A DNA stretch of 22,036 nt from a virus: positions 1 through 22,036 of IMG/VR virus record IMGVR_UViG_3300042731_011531; one strand, 5' to 3'. Below are positions 2,757-20,197 of the stretch, one piece after another. Within the stretch, counting starts at the first letter, position 1. Every line of letters starts with the position of its first letter. The position numbers and the translations under genes are program-made. Below the pieces are notes generated by a model that did no database searches, had not been told where the DNA came from, and saw nothing but the letters and a program-made list of their open reading frames with translations.

Positions 2757-3644
2757 TCAGATCCCCCTTGAGAAGCGATCGGCGACCTCTTCCTCGGGTA
2801 CTTCCTCCAGCTGATCGTAACCGCCGGTTTCATCGAGCATCAGTACGGTCAGGGTCATGCCGTATTCTTCAGAATAGAGGGTATGCTCGACTACCGCTTC
2901 ATCCTCGAACCAGACGCCGGGCCCGTGGCGAATGCCGTCTCGAGCGGTGAGGGAGAAGGCCGGCTCGGAAGCCAGGGATCCCGCAGGAACTTCAATAGGC
3001 CCGGCACGGCGAGTGGCGAAATATTTGCCCGACTTGAAAGCCTTGCTACTGGATTTCGCCCAATGCATGAACCCGGCCTCTGAGAACACGGCAATGGCCC
3101 GCCTGGGGGTGAAGTCCAGCCAGCGCAACACCGCCGAGGTCAAAGAGACGCCGTAACGGTCTGCGCAGTGCCCCAGCAGGTCGAAACCAAAGCCCTCGTT
3201 TTCGACCTGGCGCCGGAAGTCGTGGGCGGGCATCAGCAAGGTGGCGGCGAAGGCATTGGCCTCCTCTTCCCGCACCGCATAGCCAGTGTCGTAGCGCAGC
3301 ATGTCGCCGCTGCCGCACTCGAACCCGTCGAGACCGGCCTCCTGCCGGTGCAGCATGTAGTGACCCAGTTCATGGGCCAGGGTAAAGCGGATTCGGCCAG
3401 GGTGCTGGATATTGGTGTTAAAGAAGATTCCCCAGCGCGGATTGGCCGGGTCTTTGAGCAGTGCGCCTTCGAACTTGTTGAAGGTATGGCCCTGAACTTC
3501 GGTGATCGGGTCATCGTTGAAGGCGGGTGTCAGTTCAAGAGCAACCTTTGTGACATCGACAGGGTAGCGCTCTTCCGGTGGCAGGGTGTCAAGGATGCGA
3601 GAGAGGCGGTTCGCTTCCTTGTGGGGCCGCTTCTTCTCAGTCAC
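2757..3644 (-). CDS. ImmA/IrrE-type zinc metallopeptidase
   Basis: A 295-aa cytoplasmic metalloprotease. The zinc motif HELGH is at residues 91-95 within RIRFTLAHELGHYMLHRQEA, and the third ligand is probably a glutamate in REEEANAFAATLLMP (about 125-139). This is the PF06114 signature. In known systems such as ImmA of ICEBs1, the partner protease cleaves its cognate XRE repressor after DNA damage or cell-cell signalling. The C-terminal third (about 195-295) is a beta-rich domain that may sense a signal or hold the repressor. Translation starts at GTG, overlapping the XRE stop as GTGA, so the two are coupled. A degraded second copy of this gene lies at 20897-21086. Family is certain; that it cleaves the adjacent repressor is inference. 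Confidence 0.92.
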   Translation of the reverse strand: MTEKKRPHKEANRLSRILDTLPPEERYPVDVTKVALELTPAFNDDPITEVQGHTFNKFEGALLKDPANPRWGIFFNTNIQHPGRIRFTLAHELGHYMLHRQEAGLDGFECGSGDMLRYDTGYAVREEEANAFAATLLMPAHDFRRQVENEGFGFDLLGHCADRYGVSLTSAVLRWLDFTPRRAIAVFSEAGFMHWAKSSSKAFKSGKYFATRRAGPIEVPAGSLASEPAFSLTARDGIRHGPGVWFEDEAVVEHTLYSEEYGMTLTVLMLDETGGYDQLEEVPEEEVADRFSRGI

Positions 3645-3964
3645 TTTTTCCGGCTCCAGGCATCGACAATGTCTTCAATCTTCTGCTGATCCTCCGCATC
3701 CAGACTGTCGAACTTGCGAAAGAAGACCTCGCGCTTGACGGTGTCGGTCGGCTGGGTCATGCCGTTGTCGACCAGATAATCGGTGGTCGTGTCCAGTGCG
3801 CGGGCAATGGCGGCCAGCTTCTCTGCCGAAGGTCGCTTCACGCCCCGGTTCTCCAGCTCCCAGATGTAGCTCTTGCCGGAGCCGATCTGCCCGGCGAGTT
3901 GTTCGAGCGTCAGCTGTTTGGCCTTGCGCAGCTCCTTGATCTTGGCCCCGAGTAGGTTGGCCAC
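3641..3964 (-). CDS. XRE-family repressor
   Basis: A 107-aa transcription regulator with an XRE/Cro helix-turn-helix at about residues 5-63: AKIKELRKAKQLTLEQLAGQ, then SGKSYIWELENRGVKRPSAE. The C-terminal 40 residues form an acidic tail ending IEDIVDAWSRKK, where the ImmA partner could act. The start is GTG at 3962-3964, preceded by AGAGGAG with 7-base spacing. The gene reads away from the 4115 operon, and its -10 overlaps a GTTCA-type site, so autorepression plus control of the divergent genes is likely. The operator assignment is from sequence symmetry only. Confidence 0.9.
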   Translation of the reverse strand: MANLLGAKIKELRKAKQLTLEQLAGQIGSGKSYIWELENRGVKRPSAEKLAAIARALDTTTDYLVDNGMTQPTDTVKREVFFRKFDSLDAEDQQKIEDIVDAWSRKK

Positions 3965-4008
3965 GGTGTCGCTCCTCTTGGTGTGTCGTGATGATAATCC
4001 GAAGGTTC

Positions 4009-4037
4009 AGTATAGAAATACTAAATATGCTTGACAA
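4009..4037 (-). promoter_or_regulatory. sigma70-type promoter for XRE-ImmA genes
   Basis: On the minus strand, TTGTCA (plus 4032-4037) and TATACT (plus 4009-4014) are separated by 17 bp. The -10 lies inside an imperfect operator (plus 4004-4022; GTTCAGTATA with an AGTAT/ATACT dyad). The -35 overlaps that of the divergent plus-strand promoter. Confidence 0.65.
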
Positions 4038-4060
4038 GCGATACAGGTGGCCCCTATCCT
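4031..4060 (+). promoter_or_regulatory. sigma70-type promoter for the 4115 operon
   Basis: TTGACA (4031-4036) and TATCCT (4055-4060) are 18 bp apart and point to the 4115 gene. Transcription would begin near 4067, inside the palindromic operator at 4063-4082, an arrangement expected to be shut off by bound repressor. Confidence 0.6.
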
Positions 4061-4062
4061 GA

Positions 4063-4082
4063 AAGTTCATTATATTGAACTT
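4063..4082. promoter_or_regulatory. palindromic operator, probable XRE repressor site
   Basis: AAGTTCA and TGAACTT form perfect 7-bp arms around TTATAT. The half-site GTTCAnTATA recurs at 4005-4014 (GTTCAGTATA) over the repressor's own -10. Two related sites, one over each divergent promoter, are the usual layout for a phage-type repressor that controls itself and an opposing operon. Confidence 0.65.
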
Positions 4083-4114: not shown

Positions 4115-5284
4115 ATGCCGGTTGTCCGTAATTTTGTCCGCCACACCTCACCCGCACGACTGCGGGAGTACTTCGTCAGCAAGAAAATCGCCGTCAGCGG
4201 CGTCGACTGGAGCCAGGATCAGGCCGAAGTTGCCAAGAATGTTATCCGGCTGGTCGACCACCTGAGTGACAGCGACCGGGCACGGCTCCGGATCGATGCG
4301 GAGCGAATTTGTCAGATGGCGGACGAGGTCGGGCAGGCCGCCCTGTTGAGCGTTGTGGAGAACCGGGCCACCTTCGACGGCCTGCAGAACGGCATCGAAC
4401 GCAGTCACTGGGTCTATGTCAACGAACCGGAATCGTTCCGGCACGCCGAGGACATCCGCTACGCCGACCAGTACCGCCATGGCCGGAACTGGAGCGGCTA
4501 CCAGGTGGAAGCGGGGATTGCGCTGGCGACCGATAGGGCATCTCTCACGGCGTTCAAGGAGAAGATCAAAACCCTGTTCGGCCTGGGTGACAAGGTGAAG
4601 CTGGAGCTGTTCGAAAGAATCGTAACCGACGAAGAGGGTAGGGATGTCGCATGGATGCAGGTGATGGTCTACCAGGAAGGCATGCCCGACGCCTACCTGG
4701 AGTTCGAAGGGGAGGATATCGTCTCGCGCATCCGCCGGCCGGTTTCGGAACACGCCATTACCTATGCCTCAGAGACCGGCGTCATCGAGGTGGTGGCAGC
4801 ACGCAGGGAGCGCCGTGACAGCATCGCGAAGGCCTTCACCGAGGATCTGCTGAAACGCCCGAACGAAGCCGATACCCTTCCCCTGCGGCGCTACAGCCTG
4901 ACGCCACTGTTGCAGAAGCAACCGCTGGACTGGGACAGGGAAGACGGTATCGAATCGGTACAGGTGGTCATGATAAAGCTCAAGGATCTGGCAGGGGACG
5001 GCCGTATCCAGCTGGAGGTGCCGGCGAGGAGTGAGATCGGTTTTTACGACTATGTCGACGAGCATTTTGGCGATCGCAATCCCTTGACCTCGGGAAACTT
5101 CACACCCACCCAGGCACAACTCTCCATTCGCTTCTATCCTGAAAACGGCTCCAACCGGCGCAAGGTCCTGCCGGTGAAGATCACTATGCCCAACGGCTGT
5201 GACCTGCGAAGCCGCACCGAGCGCGAAAGGTTGATCGGAGAGAAGTATCTGAAGCGCTGGGGCTTGCTGGAAGAGATCGCTTGA
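4115..5284 (+). CDS. unknown 389-aa protein, first gene of the repressor-controlled operon
   Basis: I recognise no characterised family. The ATG at 4115 is preceded by AAGGAG with 10-base spacing. The N-terminus (VVRNFVRHTSPARLREYF) followed by VDWSQDQAEV looks like a conserved opening that I believe recurs in island proteins beside XRE/ImmA pairs, but I cannot cite it. Residues about 95-150 are rich in aromatics and charge (ESFRHAEDIRYADQYRHG); about 150-230 alternate hydrophobic and acidic residues like a beta-rich domain; about 275-389 form another compact domain ending KYLKRWGLLEEIA. There is no signal peptide, membrane helix or Walker motif. The stop overlaps the next gene's ATG by one base (TGATG). 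Being under repressor and protease control suggests a costly or conditional activity. Function unknown. Confidence 0.85.
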   Translation: MPVVRNFVRHTSPARLREYFVSKKIAVSGVDWSQDQAEVAKNVIRLVDHLSDSDRARLRIDAERICQMADEVGQAALLSVVENRATFDGLQNGIERSHWVYVNEPESFRHAEDIRYADQYRHGRNWSGYQVEAGIALATDRASLTAFKEKIKTLFGLGDKVKLELFERIVTDEEGRDVAWMQVMVYQEGMPDAYLEFEGEDIVSRIRRPVSEHAITYASETGVIEVVAARRERRDSIAKAFTEDLLKRPNEADTLPLRRYSLTPLLQKQPLDWDREDGIESVQVVMIKLKDLAGDGRIQLEVPARSEIGFYDYVDEHFGDRNPLTSGNFTPTQAQLSIRFYPENGSNRRKVLPVKITMPNGCDLRSRTERERLIGEKYLKRWGLLEEIA

Positions 5285-6255
5285 TGGCGGAACCACCGGT
5301 ACTGCGTAGAGAGGAATTGGCGCTCTTGCTTCGCATCACCGCCCATCCACGGGCGGTGATCGGCAGCGAATACGTCATGCAATCGGAGAATGGGCTCGGA
5401 CTGGTCGAGAAAGGACTGCTAAGGCCCTACGCAAACGGGTCGGAGTTTATCGAGGTTGACGATGAAGACCGGGAGCTGGTCTGGGATAGCGTCAGTCGGA
5501 CTTATCGTTATTTCACGCCAGCGGAGGGTTGGGTCGTAGTGCCTTCTGACTGTTTGAAAGCCTACCGGGTGGATTTTGAAGCAGTGTTGGCTGTCATCAG
5601 TCGATGGTTTCAGATGCCTACTCGTTCCGGTCCAACAAATCTCGTGCTGGAGTTGTTGTGGGATCTTGGAGAAACCTGGATTAGCAAGCGCCGGGTAGCC
5701 CTACTTTTTCTTCGTCGAGCCGGGCTTCCAGAGACACTTTCCAAGGTGCGTGCCGCGCTGCAGGGATATCCTCGACGAGGCGCCAGTCTCATTCTCACCG
5801 ACGGGCGACCGAGCGGTTATGGACCGGATCTTCCAGGAAACCCCATTCTTGTATCTCTGATGGATCTGTTCTCCCCGGAGAAGGAAGTTCTAGATAGCCT
5901 TGATGCAGAATCCCTTGTCGTAAACGGGGGTGCTGTTCGGGAGCCTAGGCGGAAGTGGAGCTCTGTGGAGTGCAACGAGGATGGTGGGTATCTACGCCTT
6001 CATGATCGGGAATTCCATTTCAGTGGCTTGACTCATAGGCGAATCATTCGAATCTTGTACGAGACCTGGGAGCGTGGTGAACCCCATATGAGGACCGCAT
6101 CGGTTCTCGAAGAAGCCGAGTCGCGCTCAAGAGCCATGAGTCAAGCGTTTAGCGGCTGTAAGGAAGACTGGAAAGGCGCCATCGCCTATGGCGGTGGATA
6201 TTGTTGGTTGATCGTTGATGAGCCAGCGCAATCGGTTCTTCAAGCGTTGGGATAA
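5284..6255 (+). CDS. unknown 323-aa protein with probable C-terminal winged helix
   Basis: Function unknown. I chose ATG 5284-5286, sharing one base with the upstream stop, rather than the TTG one codon earlier. Residues about 120-200 (LWDLGETWISKRRVALLFLR, then SLILTDGRPSGYG) resemble a conserved segment of uncharacterised island proteins. Residues about 243-313 look like a winged helix: FSGLTHRRIIRILYETWERG, RSRAMSQAFSG, DWKGAI and a final strand GGGYCWLI. That suggests DNA or protein binding. No membrane segment, signal peptide or nuclease motif is evident. Base composition becomes AT-richer through this gene. Coupling to the 389-aa protein implies that they act together. Confidence 0.8.
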   Translation: MAEPPVLRREELALLLRITAHPRAVIGSEYVMQSENGLGLVEKGLLRPYANGSEFIEVDDEDRELVWDSVSRTYRYFTPAEGWVVVPSDCLKAYRVDFEAVLAVISRWFQMPTRSGPTNLVLELLWDLGETWISKRRVALLFLRRAGLPETLSKVRAALQGYPRRGASLILTDGRPSGYGPDLPGNPILVSLMDLFSPEKEVLDSLDAESLVVNGGAVREPRRKWSSVECNEDGGYLRLHDREFHFSGLTHRRIIRILYETWERGEPHMRTASVLEEAESRSRAMSQAFSGCKEDWKGAIAYGGGYCWLIVDEPAQSVLQALG

Positions 6256-6293
6256 GTTGCTGTGGATATTGCGGAATAGAGGATAAAGGAGAA

Positions 6294-6593
6294 ATGGGTT
6301 CTATTGATTTTGAAGGTTGGAATGTCGAGGTGGATGATATTGAGTTGCTGAATAAATCACCGGAAGTGGCAAAGCTTGGTCTTGTGTTTGAGCAATATCC
6401 CGGTCTTGTCAGTGCTTCGGCCAAGGGGAACGTATCTGCCTATTACGTTGTTTTGCAAGAAGTCAAGCGGCGGTTGGTTTCAGGTGGATTTAATGTCGAT
6501 GTCGAATTAAACGCCAATGCAAGAAAATCCATCCTGTTGACGCCGGATTCTGTTACAGAGGATGGAAAAGATATGACGTTTCTTTTTCAATGA
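6294..6593 (+). CDS. unknown 99-aa protein, third gene of the operon
   Basis: A small acidic protein with no recognised family, beginning MGSIDFEGWNVEVDDIELLN and ending DGKDMTFLFQ. AAGGAG (6286-6291) sits just before the ATG. The middle part (YYVVLQEVKRRLVSGGFNVD) looks like a helix followed by a strand, so a small alpha-beta fold is plausible. It lies 38 bp after the 323-aa gene on the same strand, consistent with one operon, and its stop is five bases from the stop of the convergent helicase. It could be a regulator, immunity-like or adaptor protein. None of these is shown. Confidence 0.7.
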   Translation: MGSIDFEGWNVEVDDIELLNKSPEVAKLGLVFEQYPGLVSASAKGNVSAYYVVLQEVKRRLVSGGFNVDVELNANARKSILLTPDSVTEDGKDMTFLFQ

Positions 6594-6598
6594 GGTCG

Positions 6599-8587
6599 TT
6601 ATGACGATGAGGATTCTTCAATCCAACTTCGTAGCGACTCGGGGGCAATCAATTTCTGACGCACACGGGTGGCGCCGATATAAAGCGCGGCCATCGCCTT
6701 GCGTGCAGTATCCTTGTCAGTCCTATCAGTTTTTTGGATTATGTCTGTGGTGTCCGGGCCTAACATGACGACGTCAAATTCTCTGTTCTTGGCTGCTGTG
6801 AGAGTGCTGAGCGCATATTTGTCAGGGGGGCTGGTTTTGATCCAGTACTGAGTGGATTCCCACTTCTTGGTGGAGTAGCCTTGTTCGAGCAGTGCGTAAA
6901 TCCTCTTGAATCCTCGATTCTTAGCCATAGCCTCGACGAGCCGGTCCCAGGTTCGGAAGCTAAATAGATCGCGGTGCCTAGGAGGCGTTCCGCGATTTTT
7001 AAGTTCTATGCAGTCCTGAACGAAAAGATTTAGGTCCTTATCCTCTGCATAGAGGGTAAATCGCACCCCATTCCTTAGGAGATGGTCTGCCCATGCCCAC
7101 AGGGCCCAGTAGTCACTGACAAGGATCGCGGCAGCCGGCTTAGGGATGGTTGGCTTTTGGTCCGGATAGAAGGTCACCGTTGTTTTGATGTCTTTGCTGC
7201 CTGCAAAAAGTTCCTTGGGTTTTATTACAGGGTGGGTAATGATGATGGGATTGATAATATCTTCAAGCTGATGACCTGCTCGACAAGATTGGGTAATGCT
7301 TGCTTTTCGTACTTTTCTTTCACGATAGACAGAACTCCCGGCTAATTTTTGGTAATCATCCGCCAGAGTAATGCAGGCCGCCATACTGTTATCAATCACT
7401 TGCAGCAGTGCTTGTGGGGCATCATGACATTCATCGATGATTACATGTGAATAGTGTTTGGGGATAGCGAAGCCATGTAGTGCCGCAAGCTTGATCTTAT
7501 GAAACCCACGTATCGGTGGCTTGAAGTCGCTAGTCGTGGGGTTTACGGTCTCCTGCCACAAACTCTCCGCTGTACGGATCACGATTGCCTCTAGCGCGGC
7601 GGAGTCAATAATGGATTTTTGCTTGGCGAGTTCATTCTGCTTGAACCATCTTGGTATGTGGTCTCCGAGGATGATGTCATCTGTGCTCGCACAGTAGCGG
7701 GAGAGGGCGCCTTTACTGGCGCTGGCAATCGAGTAAGCTGATGTGCGCCCTATGCCGGTGAGGCCATAAATTGACACGATATCTTTGGGGTCAAGTTGCT
7801 TGTTATGCTCGGCTTTGGTTCGTATGCGGGCGTACGCCTTGTCAAGCGGCCCTTTCGGAATGATCTGTTGCATCAGATCCTCATAGGTTAAGCTCGTGAT
7901 TGAGTTTCCAATTTTTTGCTTTAACGGCCTCAATTGCTGCCATGTCCTGGTAAGTAACAGGATGTTGTGTGGATTGAGACCTTGAGATAGCAAAAGGCTT
8001 GTGATTACTTTGATCAGGTACGATTTACCGGTACCAGCATAACCTTGAATATGTAGATGCTCGTCAATCTGACGGTTTAGGGTATAGGGGATCCTGAATT
8101 GCTGATCTGTAAGCCCAGTGTTCAGCGGAAGACCTGGAATCTGGTAGTGGGGGTCTTCGGCCGGAACCCGATTGGTTTGTAGGTTCCGTGTAAAGTTGAA
8201 ATCCCATTCGCCGTTTGGCTGCAGGTAGTTGCGGGACGCTACTTCGCCTTGCTCAAGCAAATCCACGCCCATATCACACATGGCTACGAAGCCGGCACGA
8301 AGAAAGCCTGGTTCGATTAGGCGTTCAATTTCATCAGAAAACTCATTGGAGCCATCATTTTTCGCTGCTGTATTCAATTCAGCAATAAGCTTGGCAAGCC
8401 GACGCTCAATTTCCAGAGTAGAGAGCCCCTTCGCGTGTAAATCGGGCAATTTCTGAAGAACGTATAGAGCAGATAGTTCCGAGCTGGAGAGCACGCGTAG
8501 GTGATCACTGATGGCAAGTTGATCATCTAAGAGAGTGGTGACGGTCTCTCTGCTCAGAGGGAGATAAAGACGCTTTGTATCAACCAC
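6599..8587 (-). CDS. SF1 (UvrD/Rep-like) helicase-family ATPase
   Basis: A 662-aa P-loop ATPase with superfamily 1 motifs in order: Walker A GYAGTGKS at 182-189; Walker B VIIDECHDA at about 382-390; a motif III-like LADDYQKL near 408-415; QSCRAG near 433-438; the helicase motif V region LSTLTAAKNREFDVVMLG near 600-615; and motif VI LYIGATRVRQKL near 640-651. The first 170 residues are a charged, helical domain without a recognised fold and may specify target or partner. Length is typical of compact UvrD-like proteins. The start is GTG. The gene is AT-richer than the replication module and meets the unknown operon tail to tail with 5 bp between stops. It may unwind DNA in repair or in a defence-like role. 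Family is firm, role is not. Confidence 0.88.
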   Translation of the reverse strand: MVDTKRLYLPLSRETVTTLLDDQLAISDHLRVLSSSELSALYVLQKLPDLHAKGLSTLEIERRLAKLIAELNTAAKNDGSNEFSDEIERLIEPGFLRAGFVAMCDMGVDLLEQGEVASRNYLQPNGEWDFNFTRNLQTNRVPAEDPHYQIPGLPLNTGLTDQQFRIPYTLNRQIDEHLHIQGYAGTGKSYLIKVITSLLLSQGLNPHNILLLTRTWQQLRPLKQKIGNSITSLTYEDLMQQIIPKGPLDKAYARIRTKAEHNKQLDPKDIVSIYGLTGIGRTSAYSIASASKGALSRYCASTDDIILGDHIPRWFKQNELAKQKSIIDSAALEAIVIRTAESLWQETVNPTTSDFKPPIRGFHKIKLAALHGFAIPKHYSHVIIDECHDAPQALLQVIDNSMAACITLADDYQKLAGSSVYRERKVRKASITQSCRAGHQLEDIINPIIITHPVIKPKELFAGSKDIKTTVTFYPDQKPTIPKPAAAILVSDYWALWAWADHLLRNGVRFTLYAEDKDLNLFVQDCIELKNRGTPPRHRDLFSFRTWDRLVEAMAKNRGFKRIYALLEQGYSTKKWESTQYWIKTSPPDKYALSTLTAAKNREFDVVMLGPDTTDIIQKTDRTDKDTARKAMAALYIGATRVRQKLIAPESLRSWIEESSSS

Positions 8588-8740: not shown

Positions 8741-8781
8741 CCTAACTGTATGCCTAACTCCACCCTGACCACCTCCTAACT
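8741..8781 (+). repeat. three CCTAACT direct repeats
   Basis: CCTAACT occurs at 8741-8747, 8753-8759 and 8775-8781, start-to-start spacings 12 and 22 bp, close to one and two helical turns. This suggests a binding site for a small DNA-bending protein. The AlpA-like product encoded just downstream is an obvious candidate, by inference. Confidence 0.45.
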
Positions 8782-8795
8782 ATCGCAACCGCATT

Positions 8796-8832
8796 CTTTC
8801 TCCTGCGTTTCGCAACAACCCGCAGGAGAAAG
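8796..8832 (+). promoter_or_regulatory. 12-bp hairpin burying the ribosome binding site
   Basis: CTTTCTCCTGCG (8796-8807) and CGCAGGAGAAAG (8821-8832) are perfectly complementary around a 13-nt loop. The AGGAG Shine-Dalgarno at 8824-8828 is wholly within the second arm and the ATG follows two bases later. In RNA this would block translation of the first gene of the replication operon; as DNA it could be a palindromic operator. Confidence 0.65.
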
Positions 8833-8834
8833 TG

Positions 8835-9056
8835 ATGACTGTAAAACACCTCAATCAGGCCGAACTGGCCGACCGCTGGGACCTCTCCCAGCGGACTCTG
8901 GAGCGCTGGCGCGTGATCGGCTGGGGACCCTGTTTCCTCAAGATCGGCGGCCGCGTGGTCTACCGGCTCGATGACATCGAGGCCTATGAACGACGGCACA
9001 TGCGTGCTTCCACTTCTGAACCTGCCGATCAAGGGCAGGCGGGAGCGGTGGCATGA
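8835..9056 (+). CDS. AlpA/excisionase-like HTH regulator
   Basis: A 73-aa DNA-binding protein with a MerR-like winged HTH as in AlpA and phage excisionases (HTH_17): LNQAELADRWDLSQRTLERW, then GPCFLKIGGRVVYRLDDIEA, ending with an unstructured tail. I chose ATG 8835 over the GTG three bases earlier because its spacing from AGGAG is 6 rather than 3. Proteins of this kind control integrase genes or help excision; here it leads the replication operon, so it may regulate that operon, possibly through the CCTAACT repeats. Its stop overlaps the next ATG (ATGA). Family is likely; partner and target are inferred. Confidence 0.85.
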   Translation: MTVKHLNQAELADRWDLSQRTLERWRVIGWGPCFLKIGGRVVYRLDDIEAYERRHMRASTSEPADQGQAGAVA

Positions 9057-18586: not shown

Positions 18587-18892
18587 AGTGGCGTGGTGGT
18601 GCGCAGTGCAGCGCATTCGTTAGGGTCGCTGCGAAATTTTCACCCGCATAGGGCTGCAACACTTTTGCCGGTTTTGCGTTAGGATTGCTCTAACATCGCG
18701 AGAAAAGCCTGTGGGGCCGTGGATCGTTCCACGGCCCTTCTCATTTTCTGACCTCCCATTTCTTCCAAACGCTACGGGTCCTTCCTGGCCAAAAAGCCAT
18801 GCGGGGGGTGGAGGCGCGGCATTTCGCTAGCGTTGCCCGAGAAAACCGGGTTCGCAGGTTCGCGGTTCGCACTTTCATCCCAAGGTAATCAA
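18587..18892. other. 306-bp intergenic region before the methylase
   Basis: No gene is evident. It holds a small dyad GTTAG (18678-18682) with CTAAC (18690-18694) and the terminator-like hairpin at 18714-18747. The methylase may have its own promoter here, but no convincing -35/-10 pair stands out. Confidence 0.5.
18714..18747 (+). terminator. rho-independent terminator-like hairpin
   Basis: GGGCCGTGG (18714-18722) pairs perfectly with CCACGGCCC (18729-18737) around a 6-nt loop ATCGTT, followed by TTCTCATTTT. The U-tract is interrupted but the stem is very stable. It would end transcription of the replication and toxin-antitoxin genes before the methylase. Confidence 0.7.
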
Positions 18893-20197
18893 ATGCAATC
18901 AACCACGATCGATTCGGTGGAGCACTGGTCGCTCCAGCGCTTGATCCCCTATGCGCGCAACGCACGCACACATGATGATGGGCAGGTGTCGCAAATTGCC
19001 GGGTCGATTGCCGAGTTCGGTTTTGTCAATCCTATCCTGGTTGGTGACGACAACGTCATCATCGCCGGTCACGGGCGATTGCTGGCCGCGCAACAACTGG
19101 GACTCGAAAAGGTACCGGTGATCGTGCTTGGACATCTAACGGAGGCACAGCGCCGAGCGCTGGTGATCGCTGACAACAAGATCGCCGAGAACGCCGGCTG
19201 GAATGAGGAACTGCTTCAGTTGGAATTGGCCGAACTCCGAGAGCTCGATTTTGATCTTGATCTCATTGGTTTCAGCGATGAGGAACTCGACGCGTTGCTT
19301 GAGACAGAACCGGAGCCGGGTTTGACCGAGGACGACGCGATACCCGAGGTAGAGTCACAGACGGTGAGCCGCCCGGGCGACCTCTGGATCCTGGGTGGGC
19401 ACCGTTTGCTCTGTGGCGATGCCACCAACGCGGACGACATGACCCGCCTGATGGATGGTCAGCTGGCCGACATGGTCTTCACCGATCCACCCTACAACGT
19501 GGACTACGGCAACTCGGCCAAGGACAAGATGCGCGGTAAGGACCGTCGCATCCTGAACGACAATCTTGGCGAAGGCTTTTATGGCTTTTTGCAAAAAGCA
19601 CTGGCCAATCTGCTGGAAGTGACCAAAGGCGCGTGCTACATCGCCATGTCATCCAGCGAACTGGATACGCTGCAACAAGCCTTTCGAGATGCCGGTGGTA
19701 AATGGTCCACCTTCATCATCTGGGCCAAGAACACTTTTACCCTCGGGCGCTCTGACTATTAGCGCCAGTACGAGCCTATCCTCTACGGCTGGCGCGAAGG
19801 CTCTGAACACTTTTGGTGTGGTGCACGTGACCAGGGGGACGTTTGGTTTTTCAACAAACCGGCAAAGAATGATCTGCACCCCACCATGAAACCGGTGGAG
19901 CTGGTTGAACGCGCGGTGCGCAATTCCAGCAAGAGTCGGGACCTCATCCTGGATCCCTTCGGCGGTTCGGGCAGCACCCTGATTGCCTGTGAGAAGAGTG
20001 GGCGCCAAGCGCGCCTGATTGAGCTTGATCCCAAATACGTCGATGTGATCATCCGGCGCTGGCAGGAGTACACCGGTGCCGAGGCCGTATTGGAGGAATC
20101 CGGTGAAACCTTCGATGGCACATCCGTCGAGAGACTGAACACAGCAGAAAAAGAAGCTCAAACGCCCGACAAGGCGCTTGAGCCTGAGGAAGTGTGA
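18893..20197 (+). pseudogene. ParB-methyltransferase fusion gene with in-frame amber codon
   Basis: The frame encodes 434 residues but is cut by TAG at 19760-19762 (codon 290). Before the stop: a ParB-like domain (IIAGHGRLLAAQQLG near 56-70) and the methyltransferase catalytic motif TDPPY at 197-201. After it the same frame continues RQYEPILYGW, LHPTMKPVEL and the SAM-binding DPFGGSGS (354-361), the motif order of beta-class amino-methyltransferases. Relatives typically have Gln at the stop (SDYQRQYEPI), so one CAG-to-TAG change explains it. The 289-aa product would lack the SAM site; reinitiation at ATG 19886 could make the last 103 residues. I chose ATG 18893 over a TTG at 18833. Intact, it would methylate adenine or cytosine amino groups in phage DNA. 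Confidence 0.88.

Follow-up and report, generated by a model that had tools for sequence, protein, structure and literature searches.

Organization of the locus

The window, by which the whole 22,036-nt stretch of viral DNA analysed here is meant, carries three consecutive genes (A, B and C) that face a helicase gene (H). A first-pass annotation had proposed that these four genes make up one defence or element-competition system, and the locus raises the question of whether they belong together and of what the conserved ones among them may do. The relevant features are:

2757..3644, minus strand: CapP homologue, an M78/ImmA-type protease of 295 aa with an HELGH motif (PADLOC capP 5.8e-71; Peptidase_M78 1.1e-16)
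3641..3964, minus strand: CapH homologue, an XRE repressor of 107 aa (PADLOC capH 1.7e-29; HTH_3)
4003..4022, no strand assigned: upstream operator-like site of the repressor (GTTCAGTATAGAAATAC), seen as AAGTTCAtTATAGACATAC across 12 aligned intergenic regions
4031..4082, plus strand: promoter of A, with TTGACA at 4031, 18 nt, TATCCT at 4055, and the palindromic operator AAGTTCATTATATTGAACTT at 4063-4082
4115..5284, plus strand: gene A, 389 aa, phrog_37634 (unknown function), predicted RdgC/CENP-N/CENP-L-like fold with a helical N-terminal part
5284..6255, plus strand: gene B, 323 aa, predicted winged-helix regions at the N-terminus and C-terminus
6294..6593, plus strand: gene C, 99 aa orphan, putative cargo, 43% GC
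6599..8587, minus strand: gene H, 662 aa SF1 (UvrD-like) helicase, putative cargo, 49% GC
8741..8780, plus strand: four direct repeats (CCTAAC, CCTAAC, CCTGAC, CCTAAC) at 8741, 8753, 8764 and 8775, predicted B-binding iterons
8792..8797, plus strand: -10-like hexamer CATTCT, lying 18 nt past the point where the final 8-nt repeat unit starts
8832..9056, plus strand: gene d1, AlpA/HTH_17-type regulator (HTH_17 1.8e-6), first gene of the replication operon

Direct reading of the ORF list confirmed the coordinates first given for A, B, C and H, and the absence of a recognised family for A to C also stood, A belonging to a phrog without function and B and C having no family match. The start of B lies within the stop of A (TGATG), and the stops of C and of the convergent minus-strand gene H are five bases apart, as described before. 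The description of three coupled genes held for A and B, through their overlap, but not for C, which follows a gap of 38 nt with an AAGGAG site of its own and is missing in every relative. Likewise, the block had been called AT-richer than its flanks (60-62% GC), and this was clearly true of C and H only, whereas A (60%) was like the flanks and B (55%) was intermediate. Further downstream (18833-20197), two ORFs of 309 and 103 aa both matched single longer ParB-domain/DNA-methyltransferase genes in relatives (e.g. L005:9744-11066), and this gene looks interrupted in the window.

Distribution of the A-B pair

Relatives were collected with A as query from viral contigs, genomes and one plasmid, giving 51 loci (L numbers), some of them nearly identical and not all independent. 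The A-B pair was present in 49: a recognisable B followed A in 41, the two were fused in two, and in six a same-strand ORF unmatched by the B profile lay directly behind A. The fusions encode one protein of 721-724 aa (L126:8077-10251 and L127:8263-10428). An AlpA-type gene, detected by profile, was found downstream of A in 42 of the 51 relatives, and nearly all phage-type loci showed the same order, in which recombinase, DUF2924 and repressor genes are followed by A, B, the AlpA-type gene and the replication block. Of 398 genomes sampled from the phylum, 33 contained relatives of A; a search of GenBank phages with the A protein of the window gave no useful match.

One relative (G776) encodes a GpA terminase, a lambda-type portal, capsid E and a tail sheath, which indicates a temperate tailed phage. 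No terminase, portal, capsid or tail gene was found in the window, a 22 kb fragment, and searching the relatives for TerL PF03354 gave no result, their terminase being of the GpA type. Gene content and order argue that A-B is a conserved core pair of a widespread family of temperate, sheath-tailed phages, and also of integrase islands. The phage of the window further encodes a Sak4-like annealing protein and a Cas4-type exonuclease.

Distant A-B pairs adjoin restriction systems of types I, III and IIG in integrase islands (L121:4696-11587, L056:647-7186 and L122:8598-15702), the restriction system being different in every island. An AlpA-type gene was seen in L056 and L122. Assignment of AlpA-integrase islands to ubiquitin-like operons was rejected, their genes being AlpA, HTH_17 and integrase.

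Cargo between gene B and the AlpA-type gene

The suggestion that the locus contains a cargo slot was borne out. The position between B and AlpA was empty in L017, L018, L025, L026 and L029, held C and H in the window, and was filled by AbiE in L001, L003, L012, L015, L019, L020 and L125. The AbiE toxin-antitoxin pairs stand on the opposite strand between B and the repeats (L001:10134-11736, L003:7631-9233, L012:10127-11732, L019:12283-13628, and L125) and belong to different lineages, which have repeatedly occupied this slot.

C and H occurred in none of the A-B relatives. No family or relative of C was found by profile searches or among plasmids and viral contigs. H was indeed a UvrD-like SF1 ATPase (Walker A GYAGTGKS, DECHD; phrog_1967 1.3e-15); a search for its relatives in viral contigs was fruitless, and those found were on Pseudomonas and Stenotrophomonas plasmids, with about 32% identity over 97%, and without C or A-B. 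H represents an uncharacterised SF1 family present in 156 plasmid records, mainly from Pseudomonas, and in the one record read (Pseudomonas sp. P105) the gene adjoins umuD/Y-family polymerase and ParB-type genes. Assignment to Gabija was rejected, since H matches GajB in its C-terminal part only (2.2e-6) and lacks a neighbouring GajA gene. Composition and distribution indicate that C and H are AT-rich, recently acquired cargo.

The CapH and CapP homologues and the promoter of A

Control by an ImmA-type protease and an XRE repressor, already recognised in the first annotation, could be specified further by PADLOC profiles: the two proteins are homologues of CapP and CapH. The CapH match spans repressor residues 1-106, and the HExxH zinc motif of CapP is present in the protease. 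The divergent promoter with repressor operators before A proved real, both sites and the promoter being kept in 11 relatives. Alignment of 12 intergenic regions showed conserved -35 (TTGACA-like) and -10 elements and a pair of AAGTTC-type sites, of which one is a palindrome over the start region. In the window this downstream operator is an inverted repeat with perfect arms, to which the upstream site is related.

CapH and CapP, associated with CBASS and Bub, are known to control immune operons in response to DNA damage: CapP binds to ssDNA and cuts CapH, and the adjacent operon, usually one with an immune function, is thereby derepressed (PMC13373217). Placed where a lysogeny repressor would sit, the pair of the window probably takes over that role. 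CapH and CapP are missing from many phages of the family, which have unrelated or longer ImmA-type regulators at the same place.

A four-repeat array before the AlpA-type gene

The direct repeats lie beyond the block first described (4115-8587), and the array ends about 55 nt before AlpA. Arrays were called with a simple score and 60 shuffles per locus. Of 43,986 positions on the two strands of the window, this array scored highest, and arrays were likewise the single best in L115, L116, L119, L120, L018 and L025. An array of similar geometry, near (0, 12, 23, 34) and beginning 91-99 nt before AlpA, was significant in 28 loci; in L116 and L119 it consisted of four repeats identical at 8/8 positions. 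The repeat type depended on lineage, with CCTAAC, TCCCACC, TCACACC, CTCCTACC, CTCCTCAG and others. Across 23 loci, the -10 score peaked sharply, compared with all other distances, where the start of the final repeat unit lay 17-19 nt away, and no -35 was apparent before AlpA. Arrays were undetected in the integrase islands L051, L053, L056, L058, L121 and L122, and weak in phages L027, L028, L048 and L131, so that A-B may act differently there.

A second array was observed about 180-200 nt upstream of the AlpA array, before a small ORF, in L116:10883-11106 and L129:7563-7794. A perfect 12-nt inverted repeat (CTTTCTCCTGCG / CGCAGGAGAAAG) was also noted at 8796-8832 of the window, and in L018; its 3' arm holds the ribosome-binding site of AlpA, which it may sequester.

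One array stood elsewhere than before AlpA. On the plasmid of Candidatus Tenderia electrophaga (CP013100.1; L008:11989-16670), the genes behind A-B are Multi_ubiq, a JAB-type gene and ThiF/E1, not AlpA, and the 142 nt before Multi_ubiq hold the four-repeat array, here of the TTCACACC type, together with a -10-like site. Twelve Multi_ubiq loci were examined in Gammaproteobacteria, and A-B was present in this one only. The absence from the 11 others marks the plasmid as a single capture and not the rule, and A-B was on this ground rejected as a general part of ubiquitin-like systems.

Gene B and covariation with the repeats

Structure prediction for B gave a model with pLDDT 83. The best alignments of its C-terminal domain (residues 226-312) were OmpR-family DNA-binding domains, with modest VIA Z values up to 6.3 and all top 17 rows of the OmpR type. 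Its N-terminal 110 residues were predicted to form helices and strands resembling a wHTH, and a receiver domain was absent from this end according to Pfam and the predicted structure. B had no Pfam match, including Trans_reg_C, and Foldseek with the whole protein gave no E below 0.1.

The repeats were found to vary with B. When A was controlled for, their similarity tracked that of B (partial Mantel p=0.0005 across 28 loci, and p=0.007 across the 22 that are non-redundant), and it was not significantly related to A when B was controlled for (p=0.13); as the loci are related, kinship is treated only approximately in these tests. Within B, the signal was confined to the winged helix at residues 226-312 (partial r 0.43, p=0.0005 given A). 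It persisted for this domain given residues 1-220 (p=0.0002), and residues 1-220 carried none given the winged helix (p=0.80). The four repeats are thus probably iterons bound by B, with the modelled domain 226-312 as their probable reader.

Pairwise comparisons pointed the same way. Between the window and L001, identity was 90% for CapH, 83% for A and 90% for the replication proteins d3/d5, against 29% for B, and their repeats are not alike. In A, L018 is further from the window (67%), yet its B is 56% identical and the repeat type is the same. As judged from these two swapped alleles, B and its repeats are exchanged as one set within an otherwise conserved backbone, a set that brackets the C/H cargo in the window.

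The fold of protein A

The model of A (pLDDT 88) gave strong structural matches only to RdgC, CENP-N/Chl4 and CENP-L/Iml3, although the matches listed do not exclude other folds. Foldseek E values were 7e-5 for RdgC and 3e-4 for CENP-N. VIA Z values reached 8.7, this group occupying ranks 1-17 (down to 6.7) before the next unrelated row at 5.8. Chl4 was aligned to model residues 57-258 and CENP-L to 70-389, with low TM-scores (about 0.3). The best match in the PDB was RdgC, and phage RdgC proteins led among the named models of the viral library. The RdgC-like fold was common to Foldseek, VIA and the viral-model comparison; likeness in sequence was undetectable. No profile match to the RdgC family (PF04381) was obtained in Pfam, hhalign gave a probability of 0.1%, and membership of A in this family was rejected for want of a sequence match. 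The resemblance of RdgC to Chl4/Iml3 was known earlier (PMC4080450). It is this predicted fold that suggests a possible part for A in an activator pair.

A proposed induction switch and alternative explanations

Taking together the conserved genes, the operators, the array with its -10 spacing and the covariation of repeats with B, we infer that A-B is probably an early transcription-activator pair of this temperate phage family, with B and A acting at the repeats on the promoter of the AlpA-replication operon. CapH would repress the divergent promoter before A until its destruction by CapP allows A-B to be made. The C-terminal winged helix of B would then bind four direct repeats ahead of AlpA, spaced about 11-12 bp from one another. 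B together with A would activate a promoter that lacks a good -35, and so turn on the replication genes as well as AlpA, which serves excision. A B-dependent promoter belonging to the AlpA operon itself would allow the stretch between B and the repeats to take up foreign genes with the circuit left intact, and this model would explain why defence cargo gathers at that one point.

The main alternative, which we regard as unlikely, is that the repeats are the iterons of a replication origin and A-B a phage origin-recognition complex. The repeats directly precede the replication block, and binding to about four iterons is common among the initiators of phages and plasmids. However, a -10-like element stands at fixed spacing behind the array, the sole array not associated with AlpA precedes a multi-ubiquitin operon, and L116 and L129 have a second array upstream. 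The repeat spacing also equals one helical turn, as with OmpR-type activators.

Less probable still is a role of A as an RdgC-like recombination modulator that blocks RecA on DNA, acting early to protect the induced prophage, with B as a separate autoregulator. The leading position of RdgC among fold matches and the recombination proteins of the phage itself (Sak4-like and Cas4-type) would fit such a role, but neither a family match nor profile similarity to RdgC accompanies the fold. Separate roles are also hard to reconcile with the position of B, nearly always directly behind A and twice fused to it, which indicates a joint function.

A single defence or element-competition system made up of A, B, C and H is very improbable despite the Cap-type regulation, typical of immune operons (PMC13373217), and the restriction systems adjoining A-B in islands: the four genes do not co-occur, A-B is found with an empty slot, the plasmid relatives of H have neither C nor A-B, and the island restriction systems differ each time. 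The pair belongs to a phage-family core, and a defence role for it is without support.

If the activator reading is right, a large temperate-phage family would possess a two-step induction switch, in which ssDNA sensing by CapH/CapP is followed by the A-B activator, and would provide a natural collection of matching readers and sites, each a B winged helix with its repeats. phrog_37634, hitherto without function, would receive a specific proposal from this B-repeat relationship, and a phage protein with the RdgC/CENP-N/L fold would be a prokaryotic addition to a small fold group containing kinetochore subunits. More tentatively, we consider it possible that A-B is a portable, sequence-addressed activation cassette, composed of an RdgC/CENP-N-like protein and a winged-helix reader with a co-exchanged DNA code of four repeats, which phages would use for induction and which was captured at least once (on the Tenderia plasmid), where phage induction logic would drive an immune-type ubiquitin-like conjugation operon.

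Comparison with known systems

As in known CapH and CapP pairs (PMC13373217), in which the protease is ssDNA-activated, the XRE repressor of the window adjoins an M78 protease and is divergent from the controlled genes; here these would be a phage early operon and not an immune operon. The islands with distant A-B share AlpA-type, integrase or DUF3987 genes with PICMI-type satellites (integrase, AlpA, DUF3987 primase), whose excision is triggered by AlpA expression alone (PMC10803314). Described PICMIs are, however, not reported to carry A-B, and the repeat array was not found in the islands with distant A-B.

Protein A shares a predicted fold with RdgC and resembles CENP-N/Chl4 and CENP-L/Iml3 in its model, but differs by an extra N-terminal helical region, by its lack of sequence similarity and by having no known kinetochore or RecA link. 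A close parallel to B is offered by PhoB/OmpR activators at the Pho box, to which it would correspond in a predicted OmpR-like winged helix, in tandem direct repeats about 11 bp apart and in their placement about 10 bp upstream of the -10 element. PhoB binds direct repeats that overlap the -35 (PMC3348028). Unlike these activators, B has neither a receiver domain nor a Pfam Trans_reg_C match and is coupled to A, and four repeats, instead of the two of the Pho box, precede the AlpA gene.
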